Below are positions 11,764 through 16,615 of a stretch of DNA of 64,000 nucleotides, piece after piece. Numbering within the stretch: the stretch's first letter is position 1; every line of letters starts with the position of its first letter. The position numbers and the translations under genes are program-made. Below the pieces are notes generated by a model that had not been told where the DNA came from, made no database searches, and worked only from the letters and a program-made list of their open reading frames with translations. Origin of the DNA: Hydractinia symbiolongicarpus (lineage: Eukaryota > Cnidaria > Hydrozoa > Anthoathecata > Hydractiniidae); contig NC_079883.1 of the NCBI RefSeq assembly GCF_029227915.1, positions 22,320,001 to 22,384,000 on the forward strand. Direction: 5' to 3'.

Positions 11764-11936
11764 AGTGGTGCCGTAGTTTAGTGGTTATAGCTCACGCACC
11801 TTGTGCGGGAGACCAGAGTTCGATTCCCACTGATGGCGATTTAATATGGACGAATGAATGTTACCATAGCCTTGGGTTAACCCAAGCTATGTGAGGGAAA
11901 TTGGAGAGATGGCACACTGTGTGGGGCCTAATTTTT
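11764..11936 (+). mobile_element. tRNA-derived SINE, second copy
   Basis: The head GTGCCGTAGTTTAGTGG with box A and a good box B (GAGTTCGATTCC) is followed by the central block shared with the copy at 7684-8092 (GAATGTTACCATAGCC, GGGTTAACCCAAGC). The 3' half of the other copy is missing here, so this one is truncated or diverged. Confidence 0.8.
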
Positions 11937-12083: not shown

Positions 12084-14846
12084 CCTGATCCTTCTTATCC
12101 AATTGAATTGGATAAGAATGATAAACTTTTATTTAACTGCAAAATTGAACCCATGTTTACATCATTAAACGATAAAGTTACTGATGCTCATATTTTGTTT
12201 TGTCTGCAAGGTGTTCATGCAGAATGTGGTCAGACTTTTAAAGCCAACCATTTTGTGCCAGTATTATTTCTTCCTAATGGTACCAAAAGGAAACTAATTA
12301 AACATTCCAAAAAAATCTTGCCGCAGTCTAAAAAACCCTGTCTGTTCCCAAAAGATGGGAAGGTACAATCAAAGTTGTCGTTTTGGACAGACCAGTGCAG
12401 CGACAAACTTATTTTGCCTACTTGTAAGAAAAAAGACTTACCCCAAATAAAAGAGGAGCACAAAACTGTTGTTGATGTTTCTTCCATGCCTCCTTTTGCT
12501 GGTAGTAGTAAAGTTAATTCAGATACTGTTGTTTGTGATAGTGCATTGTCCAATGCACCAGACACAACTACTAGTCATCCTCTGTGTTCATCTTTAAACT
12601 ATCCTCAAACTTATTTTGATGTCTCAGATTATACAGATAAAGTTTTTCAAATAAAGGATGATCCATTAAAAGTTCATGAACTTATCCAAAATGTTTATAA
12701 ACCTGATCATTCTTATAAATTTCCGAAAACAAATAGGTCTTTTCGTTTTGAGTGGTTAACAAAGTTTTCCTGGTTAAGTTATTCACCCAAGGTTGATGGA
12801 GCTTATTGTCTGCCATGTGTTTTGTTTGGACACAAGTTTTCTTCCAAATTAAGTAAAATTAAAAAACTGTTTTCTGAACCTTTTAAGTAATGGCCTGATG
12901 CTTGTGCCAACTTTGTGAAACATGAGTCAAGTACTGGCCTTCATGCTTACACATCTGCTACGTTTACTAGTTTTATGGCTAACTATTTTGGTAATTCTCA
13001 GCCGATTGATGTGCTTCTTGATACTAACCATCAGAAGAAAATTACTGAGAACAGAAAGAAATTGATACCAATTGTTCAGGCCATTATTTACTCTGGTAGA
13101 CAAGGGCATGCTTTAAGAGGTCACCGTGATGACTCACAATATCATGGTGAATTAGGAGAATTTTCTGGTGGTCGGGTAGGAAATTTTGTTGAACTTTTGA
13201 ATTTTAGAGTACAAGGTGGAGATACAGCTCTTGCTGACCATCTTAAAACTTGTCCCAAAAATGCTACATACATTTCTAAAACTACCCAGAATGAATTAAT
13301 CAACTGTTGTGGATCTGTAATTTTGGATGAAATAATCCAAGAAGTAAAATCAAACACTTTCTTTTCTATTCTGGCAGATGAAGCTGCTGATTTATCTAAT
13401 AAAGAGCAAATGTCCTTAGTTTTACGTTTTGTTGACAGTAATTTGAATATACGTGAGGAGTTTGTTCAATATATTCATTGTGATGAGGGGCTGGCAGGTA
13501 AAGACTTGAAGTCTGTTCTCTTAAAGTCACTTCATAACCTGACTTTAAATATTAAGGACTGTCGGGGTCAAGCATATGATGGTGCAGGTGCTGTTGCTGG
13601 GTATAAGAATGGACTTTCTGCCCATATTCTTAATTTAAATAAAAAGGCTATATATGTTCATTGCAACAGTCATCGTTTAAATTTAGCAGTTGGAAAATCT
13701 TGTACAATCAGCTTAGTTGCCCATGTGATGGCTAAAATAAAACACATTTCCTATTTCTTTAACTATTCTCAAAAAAGACAGCAATCCCTTATGATTAACA
13801 TAGATAAATATAGTCCGACTTCTAAAAAAACTAAATTAAAGGATGTTTGCTGTACTCAGTGGGTTGAACGAATTACTGGTTTAGATCTCTTTCAAGAGTT
13901 ATATGTGCCTATTTATATTACTTTGGAAGAGATGAAATTAAACTTAAATCGACAGTTCAATTATGACACATCAAAACAAGCTGTTGGTTTTTTTCACCAA
14001 ATAGCTAATTTTGAATTTCTTGTCACTCTGGTGATCACAAGGAACGTATTTGACATAACACTTCCAGTTACTCAATTGCTACAAAATAGAACAATTGATG
14101 TTATGGACAGCATAGAGCTTATTCAAACATTAAAAAATGTTCTCCTTCAAACCAGAAATAATGTGGAACATTTTCATGATAGGTGGTATGAGGAGGCTCT
14201 TTCTCTTTGTGAAAAAGTGGGAATTGTGGAGGAGAAGAAGGGAACTGTTGGAAGGCAAACCACAAGAGATAATCATCCTTCTTTTTCAACTTCTGATTAC
14301 TATAAAAAATCAGTTACTAATCCTCTTTTAGACCATTTAAATAGTGAAATGAAGAATCGTTTTCAACCGTTTTCTCTAAATGCTTATAATGGCCTATGCA
14401 TTGTTCCAGCAAAAATGGTTTCTTTGATTTCTGGAGGTAAAACAAACTAGAAGGAGAAATTCAAGTCTTTTGTCTCTTTCTATGAAGATGACCTTCCAAA
14501 TATACTTGGGCTTAATGCTGAATTAGAAATTTGGGAGAAGTATTGGATTGATTTTAAAGGAAATAGACCCCAAACTATTGCTCAAACGTTGAAGTCTGTT
14601 AATCTAAATGTCTTTGTTAATTTGCATGTGGCCCTAAGAATTTTAGCCACTATTCCTGTCACCACATGTGAATGTGAACGCTCTTTCTCTGCTATGAGAA
14701 AACTTAAAAATTATACTCGCACTACTATGGTATCTGAACGCCTCAACAGGCTAGCGCTTATGTATATTCACAAAGAAATAGTGCCAGATGTTGATAAAGT
14801 TTTAAATAAATTTGCTAAAGATAAAAGAAGACTTGAATTAATATAA
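12084..14846 (+). pseudogene. hAT transposase (TTF/ZMYM-like zinc-finger type), two in-frame stops
   Basis: One reading frame runs for about 920 codons from an acceptor-like site (CCTTCCAG at 12076-12083) to TAA at 14844-14846. It is interrupted only by TAA at 12888-12890 and TAG at 14448-14450; there is no frameshift. In order it shows a TTF-type zinc-finger region (YCLPCVLFG), the RNase H-like fold with acidic motifs (FFSILADEAAD, QAYDGAGAVAG), a conserved HCNSHRLNLAV motif, and the hAT dimerisation domain (IPVTTCECERSFSAM, RLALMYIH). The protein would cut and paste its own element. The intact frame argues for recent inactivation, or for a family with readable stops. An upstream exon seems to be missing because the first in-frame ATG comes after the TTF-like leader starts. 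Confidence 0.9.
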
Positions 14847-14995
14847 ATTTTTCCACTATACAATCTAGAACAAATTAATGAATAAATAAATAAATAATTA
14901 AATCTTACCCACTCCTAATTGAAAAAAATAGTAACCATTTATATAAAATAAATTCCCTTTCCTCTTGTTTACGTTGTGTCGTTATCTTTCTGCAG
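14847..14995. other. 3' flank of the hAT gene
   Basis: AT-rich, with an AATA-rich run (14876-14895) that includes AATAAA and may serve as the transposase polyadenylation signal. Confidence 0.4.
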
Positions 14996-15140
14996 GTTCA
15001 GCTTGCTCCGGCTGATAGTACCTGTTCTAGGAGCCCCCTGTCAGGGGCTTTAATAACTTTCTATTTTTATATCAATTCCTTTTCTTTAACCCCCCCCCCT
15101 TTTCCGAGTTCGGCTTGCGCCAGCTGATAGCACTCGGTTG
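14996..15140. repeat. Direct repeat pair upstream of the ribozyme
   Basis: 14996-15028 and 15108-15140 are diverged copies offset by 112 bases (shared CTTGC, GCTGATAG and AC blocks). A short hairpin GCCCC-TGTCA-GGGGC lies between them near 15037-15052, and a C10 run at about 15090-15099. The repeat pair suggests a tandem or LTR-like unit that carries the hammerhead at its end. Confidence 0.5.
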
Positions 15141-15149
15141 ATTGGAGCA

Positions 15150-15235
15150 GACTGTCCATGTCTGGAATAGCTAATATTACGTTATTAGCTGTTTCCTAGG
15201 CATGCTGACGAGCCCTGATATTGGGCGAAACAGTC
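15150..15235 (+). ncRNA. Candidate type III hammerhead ribozyme
   Basis: All core bases are present: CTGACGA at 15205-15211, GAAA at 15227-15230, and cleavage triplet GTC at 15154-15156 (cut predicted after C15156). Stem III is open at the ends: 15150-15155 pairs with 15230-15235, and 15149/15236 adds one more A-U pair. Stem I pairs CATGTCTGG (15157-15165) with 15196-15204, including two G-U pairs. It is capped by a further perfect 8-bp hairpin, AGCTAATA (15169-15176) with TATTAGCT (15183-15190). Stem II is GCCC (15212-15215) with GGGC (15223-15226) and loop TGATATT. Hammerheads self-cleave RNA and, in animals, usually ride on retroelements or retrozyme-like repeats. Activity is not shown by sequence alone. 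Confidence 0.82.
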
Positions 15236-15403
15236 TTAAATATATGAATTTAAACCGTTGTTTTTATTTTTCCTACACTTTTTTGCAACCCTTTACAAGA
15301 TTGTTTGTGATTTTGCTGTCCATTCGAAACAAAAAACGTCTCTAACAGAGCTAATAATTTGGACATTAATTAGGCCGTTTATAGTGCGTAGAGGCTCAAA
15401 ATA

Positions 15404-15557
15404 GCGAAAGTTTCCGGGGCTGCGCTCCGGACCCCCCATGGGGGGCTTACAGCACCCCCCAGGACCCCCAGCTGTTCTGGGCGCAGCAAATTGCTGCGCT
15501 GTTTTTTGCTTCGCAAAAAAAGTGACTGACATGTTACAAATGCTGGATCCGCCCCTG
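15404..15557. mobile_element. hAT-like terminal fragment
   Basis: It ends in CTGGATCCGCCCCTG (15543-15557), the reverse complement of the CAGGGGCGGATCCAG type of end common in animal hAT elements. It is preceded by GC-rich inverted segments, e.g. GCGCAGCAAATTGCTGCGC near 15480-15499. No matching left end was seen, so this is a partial element or the right end of the hAT that begins near 12 kb. Confidence 0.45.
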
Positions 15558-15885: not shown

Positions 15886-16615
15886 AGCAGCCCTGTTCTG
15901 CCCGGATAATGAACATTGGCCTGATTAAGTACGGCAGCTTGCCCCGGTTAAGAACAGGGCAGAAAATACATAATCAGGGCAACATAATCGGGACAGGCCG
16001 GCTTATTACTCAAAAAATATTATTTGGCACTTTATAAAAGGAACATAATCAGGGCAGTTTATATACGACAGTGTAATATTATTTCTCACTTATTATAGAA
16101 CGAACATAATCGGGGCAGGCCGACTTATGTATGACAGTCAAATATTATTCGACAATTATAGGACTTAAATAACACAAATATAATTGGGGCTGACTGCTTT
16201 TATATCATTCGTGGCAAATACTAAATTTTGGGATTCGCAAGTTTAATAACTTTTCACCAAAATTAATTCCCGCAAAAAGAATAATTTAGGTTCCGTGAAA
16301 TTTAGTTGCTTCAAAGTATATTATGTTGAAATGTATTTACTACAAGGGTAGTTTATACTAAGAATTACGTCGACACTTTTTTATTTCGCCATGTCTAGTT
16401 TTTAGGGGTGTTCTATCTTCCAGAGAATGTTTAATTTACAAAAGCTTGAAGAAAATGCCAATCACAGCCTGTCTCCCAGCTATTTATATCAGCGTTCATA
16501 ATCCGGTCACCACGACATAACAATGCAAAAAAAACATAATCGGACCGTGCGTACATAATCCGGCTGTCCCGGTTGTAAACAGGTCGTTTTCGCAATCTGG
16601 GCAGAACAGCCCCAG
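15886..16615. mobile_element. Non-autonomous CACTA/EnSpm-like element
   Basis: The left end has CCCTGTTCTGCCCGGAT (15891 onward). The reverse complement of the right end (16615 inward) reads GGGGCTGTTCTGCCCAGAT, an imperfect terminal inverted repeat. Inside, CATAATCGGGGCAG-type phrases recur in one orientation (around 15970, 15990, 16040, 16110, 16540, 16555), which looks like clustered subterminal transposase-binding repeats. This arrangement is typical of the CACTA/EnSpm group, but no transposase gene and no clear target duplication are present. Length is about 730 bp. Confidence 0.6.

Follow-up and report, generated by a model that had tools for sequence, protein, structure and literature searches.

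A predicted type III hammerhead ribozyme with an extended stem I in a group of hAT-like DNA transposons of Hydractinia symbiolongicarpus

Our analysis of the genome of Hydractinia symbiolongicarpus indicates that a group of hAT-like DNA transposons very probably carries, as an integral and inherited component, a type III hammerhead whose stem I is extended. Animal hammerheads are mostly known from elements copying through RNA, and for this reason a hammerhead in a DNA-only transposon was unexpected. To our knowledge, these would be the first cut-and-paste transposons with a catalytic RNA.

In the window (the whole stretch of 64,000 nucleotides that was analysed), a hammerhead scan of both strands demanding exact CTGANGA and GAAA gave 15149-15236 as the sole match. 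Free folding of 15144-15240 returned the hammerhead structure at -37.9 kcal/mol (z -5.3), and none of 200 shuffles folded as well. When 64-kb windows were simulated by a first-order Markov model and both strands were scanned, 0 of 150 reached a stem III of at least 7, a stem I of at least 7 and a stem II of at least 4 bp; stems of at least 5, 5 and 4 bp (III, I and II) appeared in 1 of 150 and the loosest setting was reached in 2 of 150. The motif has the CUGANGA and GAAA core, a U-H cleavage site and three helices, of which stems I and II are closed and stem III is open. Thus, 15149-15236 was confirmed as a type III hammerhead, predicted from the sequence to be self-cleaving. The full core, the three stems, the second hairpin on stem I and the type III topology had all been claimed in the original prediction and were borne out by scan and folding, and its cleavage site after C15156 is supported by the scan together with the rules known for hammerheads. 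The parts, all on the plus strand, are as follows.

15149-15236, plus strand: type III hammerhead ribozyme with extended stem I (core and stem scan, free folding, copies, covariation)
15149-15155 with 15230-15236, plus strand: stem III, 7 bp (folding)
15156, plus strand: cleavage-site nucleotide C17, after U15155, with the predicted cut between 15156 and 15157 (scan and hammerhead rules)
15157-15204, plus strand: stem I, 7 bp, then a U bulge (15197) and a long distal hairpin (15168-15191)
15205-15211, plus strand: core CUGACGA (scan)
15212-15226, plus strand: stem II, GCCC/GGGC (15212-15215 with 15223-15226), loop UGAUAUU
15227-15236, plus strand: core GAA(A) and 3' strand of stem III, with GAAA at 15227-15230

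At the gathering cut-off, Rfam gave no match in the whole window. With a relaxed E-value, Hammerhead_3 (RF00008) reached 20.5 bits of the 48.5 required (E 0.088), aligning only 15186-15236, and in the whole genome RF00008 gave no match at gathering among 68 scored of 47427 candidates. An Rfam covariance-model score above threshold, by which the prediction was to be checked, was therefore obtained neither in the window nor among the genome candidates scored. The limited match in the window is probably due to the short stem I of the Rfam family, which mismatches the extended stem I found here. Since the Rfam type III model misses the Hydractinia hammerhead at threshold, more of them may be hidden.

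The ribozyme lies within a transposon copy with the following features.

12111-15557, plus strand: hAT-like DNA transposon copy with its left end missing (homology to other family A copies up to the right inverted repeat)
12111-14846, plus strand: transposase gene remnant, DUF4371, last stop at 14844-14846
14881-14952, plus strand: AATAAA/ATTAAA poly(A)-type signals starting at 14881, 14885, 14889, 14897 and 14947, between transposase stop and ribozyme (similar in the complete copy L041)
15544-15557, plus strand: right terminal inverted repeat TGGATCCGCCCCTG, ending at 15557

Complete family A copies (L041, 5100 bp; L043, 5111 bp) start with CAGGGGCGGATCCA, the inverse of the right end TGGATCCGCCCCTG, so that the element has short terminal inverted repeats (CAGGGGCGGATC) as expected of hAT. 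Judged against the 5100-bp L041, the window copy is without about 1.66 kb at the left; the family A homology spans 12111-15557, with gaps in several of the fetched copies compared. In the window the transposase is broken by two in-frame stops (12888-12890 and 14448-14450). The protein scored above cut-off for both DUF4371 (85.0 bits) and the hAT C-terminal dimerisation region, Dimer_Tnp_hAT (PF05699; 40.6 bits, cut-off 21.4), the latter being scored in the sister copy L041. In public annotation, a protein 99% identical (85% covered) to the transposase piece at 12891-14447 (P0121) is named Hydractinia symbiolongicarpus zinc finger MYM-type protein 1-like; this entry is probably a case of a transposon mistaken for a host gene. 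Related transposases are present in Hydra, Clytia and octocoral genomes. The poly(A)-type signals lie 35-101 nt downstream of the transposase stop. The ribozyme is on the transposase strand, about 310 nt past the stop and about 200 nt past the last of the AATAAA-type signals, and the right inverted repeat follows about 0.4 kb further on.

Identical 5-bp target duplications flank all eight elements of which both ends were read (L041, L043, L044, L049 (the same as L019), L015, the A copy split over L060 and L045, L029 of family B, and the C element): AATTT, CTCAT, AAACG, ACCAG, ATATT and GTGAA in family A, CTCCT in B and ATCTT in C. L017 was left out of this count, its left-end-like match 2 kb past the right end not being its own partner. 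The usual hAT target duplication is 8 bp. The element has its transposase domains (DUF4371) and short inverted repeats in common with hAT DNA transposons, whereas it differs from them in the 5-bp duplications and in the hammerhead near its right end; because its duplications are 5 bp and not 8 bp, we call it hAT-like rather than hAT. The animal genome and transposon context of the original prediction were upheld, but its suggestion of a retrozyme-like or retroelement family was not: the host is a cut-and-paste element with inverted repeats, 5-bp duplications and a single ribozyme, which rules out a retroelement or retrozyme. Scanning of three complete A copies (L041, L043, L044) gave one ribozyme per element and no tandem copies, so the two or more hammerheads that bound a repeat unit in a retrozyme are lacking, and the covariance-model searches gave one hammerhead per locus, except at L045, where two elements are present.

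The ribozyme recurs in the 481-Mb assembly, in copies that we sort into five families (A-E). With 14950-15300 as query, among 40 scored of 156 candidates, we found 11 copies at 96-100% identity (family A, window copy counted) and 29 further matches at 90-93% that start at or just past 15146 (family B). Of the 20 family B copies that were compared, 10 share pieces of the leftmost 1.8 kb (at 67-97% identity, mostly 70-87%) as well as the part from the ribozyme onward, and they lack most of the transposase. A covariance model built on 31 A and B copies and run over 15 sources then revealed a divergent hammerhead in L045 (66.5 bits, E 1.7e-14), which belongs to a 4454-bp element, family C, with inverted repeats of the same kind as A. 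This complete C element sits inside a family A copy (L045 with L060), and therefore its 5-bp duplication and the order of the two insertions in time could be seen directly. The A and C proteins match in two stretches, 34 and 41% identical. Family C has 37 near-complete copies at 93-100% among 41 matches listed, with 40 scored of 76 candidates. When a 32-base core pattern was run over the genome with up to 3 mismatches allowed, it hit 153 places (77 forward, 76 reverse), and the reversed pattern, used as a control, matched none on either strand. By eye, among the matches listed, 23 have the loop UGACAUU (family D) and 9 start with GCAAGCTGATGAG (family E). Nearly all copies were gathered with ribozyme-containing queries, so these counts concern elements that carry the ribozyme; the exception is the C element in L045, which is an insertion in an A copy and was flagged by the model afterwards.

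Among the 11 core-pattern places fetched, de novo folding gave the hammerhead in 5 of 5 E copies and 4 of 5 D copies. Each of the families A-E has representatives that fold in this way. L071, which is nearer to A and B, folds otherwise, though its segments still mostly pair. Downstream, an inverted-repeat-like end is clear in 9 of the 11 places, weak in L068 and missing in L071; wherever an end was found, the core lies about 204-374 nt from it on the same strand. Families D and E are assigned to the same kind of element by the right end, because this end alone was read. In total 49 of 53 examined copies parse as a hammerhead when CUGANGA and GAA are required, including L025, which has G at the fourth place of GAAA. 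Four copies are broken: L039 and L059 by changes in the core, L057 and L066 by loss of the 5' half. In L057 (C) and L066 (D) this half was deleted or replaced, and the two copies are natural dead controls. All 49 parsed copies have a helix II of 4 bp with the loop UGAUAUU, UGACAUU, UGUUAUU or UGGUAUU. An AAUA/UAUU pairing of stem I with loop II, which suits A and most of B but not C, was dropped.

Our comparisons revealed that the ribozyme is kept where much of the surrounding DNA is not. Between A and B, identity is 93.7% in the ribozyme and then, stretch by stretch towards the end, 90.1, 86.4, 84.0, 74.1 and 77.1%, figures that are biased because the copies had been picked with a ribozyme-containing query. 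For six of the ten family pairs (A-C, A-D, B-C, B-D, C-D and D-E), the terminal DNA can be aligned only around the ribozyme (48-102 nt) and, in some of these pairs, at short blocks near the end. The tails of A and B align throughout at 82%, those of A and E throughout at 68% and those of B and E in two longer blocks; between C and E only the inverted repeat was reported at the alignment setting used. In nine rows from the five families, which were representatives picked by the analyst, 162 of 162 cells are paired. Copies with compensatory changes, which the original prediction had called for, are present: each helix has one two-sided change, namely A-U to G-C in stem III (C), A-U to U-A in stem I (E) and C-G to U-A in stem II (C). 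When the 3' partners of the nine rows were shuffled, three changed pairs occurred in 9 of 500 trials and the covariation score was reached in none of 500, and slid structures paired 27-46%. With 21 rows, there were 2 changed pairs, not above the shuffles (205 of 500), while changed cells and score were above them (0 of 500). Within A and B alone no covariation was found. Three compensatory changes are few events.

Several kinds of hammerhead are known with which this one can be compared. In the accessible parts of the literature, animal hammerheads occur in retrozymes, Penelope-like elements, Terminons, SINE-like repeats, introns and HDV-like agents, and type III is rare among them (PMC7936874, PMC7229834, PMC6155905, PMC7761336, PMC3088659, PMC11121367, PMC8490949, PMC6431247). 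No report of a hammerhead in a DNA transposon with a transposase was found in the accessible text of the same papers (PMC7936874, PMC7229834, PMC6155905, PMC7761336, PMC3088659, PMC11121367, PMC8490949, PMC6431247). Among the titles and abstracts listed for hammerheads together with hAT, DNA transposons, transposase, Hydra or Hydractinia, mostly outside the subscription literature, none reports such a case either. The nearest likeness, as far as the available text describes it, is to the extended type III hammerheads that occur in HDV-like RNAs of toads and termites and in the genomes of termites and dipterans, which share the topology, the distal hairpin on stem I and the occurrence of motifs in animal DNA (PMC7936874). 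However, in those the first stem is 5 bp, the internal loop 6-10 nt and helix II 6 bp long, and the loops pair through GCCR and YGGC, whereas the Hydractinia ones have 6-7 bp, a bulge of 1-2 nt, a helix II of 4 bp with the loop UGAUAUU or UGACAUU, and no YGGC in loop II (compared with the accessible part of PMC7936874). None of the 49 parsed copies combines a GCCR stem I loop with YGGC in loop II, or has the helix II of 6 bp, by which the HDV-like subgroup is recognised. Around the termite genomic motifs no recognisable ORFs were found within 2 kb (PMC7936874). Plant LTR retrozymes, according to accessible text, also carry a type III hammerhead in a mobile element, but they are retroelements with dimeric hammerheads and circular RNAs of 600-800 nt, whereas Hydractinia has one copy in a DNA transposon (PMC7229834, PMC7761336). 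Animal retrozymes (present in cnidarians), Penelope-like elements and Terminons are again hammerhead-bearing animal mobile elements, but they are retroelements, unlike the Hydractinia host; the hammerheads of retrozymes and Penelope-like elements are described, where the sources could be consulted, as type I, in tandem repeats of about 300 bp or in terminal repeats (PMC7229834, PMC7761336, PMC6431247).

Taken as a whole, these observations lead us to lean towards an integral hammerhead that would cut RNA running past the transposase poly(A) signals. Its likeliest role, which we propose tentatively, may be self-cleavage of RNA that passes these signals or enters from a host promoter. A type III hammerhead cleaves as a monomer, according to the available part of PMC6155905, and for this reason RNA past the signals should cut itself. 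Such RNA would fold and be cut after C15156, so that the upstream piece ends in a 3' cyclic phosphate and the downstream piece begins with a 5'-OH. The read-through RNA would then be ended within the element or destabilised, the transposase message would be kept out of host sequence, and the two inverted repeats would be kept out of a single RNA. It is nearly an even question whether this DNA-transposon group relies on a self-cleaving ribozyme, selected as part of its life cycle, that acts on RNA to set the 3' ends of its transcripts or to get rid of them. The B copies and the C copy that were read are without most of the transposase, so the ribozyme there cannot act on a transposase message of the same copy; if it acts in them, it would do so on read-through RNA, or it may be merely inherited.

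The strongest alternative, which we regard as unlikely, is that an ancestral hAT-like element once took up a copy of a retrozyme or of a circular RNA with a hammerhead, which has been carried since without a role in transposition. In its favour, type I hammerhead repeats are known in cnidarians and type III hammerheads in HDV-like agents and some insect genomes, as far as the sources could be consulted (PMC7229834; PMC7936874), and the loss of the core or the 5' half in some copies agrees with it. However, no second hammerhead was found in the complete A copies that were scanned, and the retention of little but the ribozyme in 6 of 10 family pairs, with compensatory changes, is not expected of neutral cargo. 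Less probable still is that the ribozyme limits transposase by removing poly(A) tails from messages that use a downstream site, so that expression stays low: its position on the transposase strand, 3' of the stop, suits this function, but the poly(A)-type signals come first and thus the main message may escape. Binding of hAT transposases to subterminal repeats is known, and a block 0.4 kb from the end whose stem I is a strong palindrome could be such a binding site with only an apparent hammerhead likeness, but this DNA-level role is very improbable, as the part that varies most is the palindromic distal hairpin, and the unpaired letters CUGANGA and GAAA are retained together with the greater part of loop II.

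Hammerheads in animal mobile DNA have so far been explained via RNA, by retroelements, circular RNAs or HDV-like agents, and a type III hammerhead that forms a conserved island of several DNA-transposon families calls for another reason to exist. Such elements are a possible route for the spread of hammerheads as DNA, and could explain why isolated type III motifs that have no host element are reported in animals. The hydroid host is a laboratory animal, in which transcripts and 5'-OH ends can be mapped.

Some further features were noted near the ribozyme. The diverged direct repeat pair originally described beside the hammerhead proved to be real, as a 21-nt hairpin motif with a mean of 0.00 in 100 shuffles.

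14998-15018, plus strand: hairpin repeat 1 (TCRGCTTGCKCCRGCTGATAG), in family A copies
15110-15130, plus strand: hairpin repeat 2, in family A copies

The outer stems of these bulged hairpins (TCRGCTTGCKCCRGCTGATAG) differ by matched changes, CAGGT/ACCTG versus CGAGT/ACTCG. They were rejected as a part of the ribozyme, being upstream of it and absent from 20 aligned B copies, and found no support as a known SINE domain in a comparison without any such domain sequence. A scan of contigs for the hairpin repeat gave one match (L001), within a bacterial reading frame resembling a chemotaxis receptor, which was taken as chance. In viral contigs there were no matches for the hairpin repeat or for two ribozyme patterns, and none of 4 matches for the transposase pattern was confirmed. 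ARAGORN found no tRNA in the window, including 11766-11850, which we take to be a tRNA-like stretch with A- and B-box-like words, perhaps a SINE. Near the right end, a G+C-rich palindromic block (15413-15500) is shared in part with D and E and is the most gap-rich stretch between copies. A repeat in three diverged copies with a spacing of 61 bp lies at 15971-16118, and an MRPL47 gene in the window has its nearest named match in Hydra.
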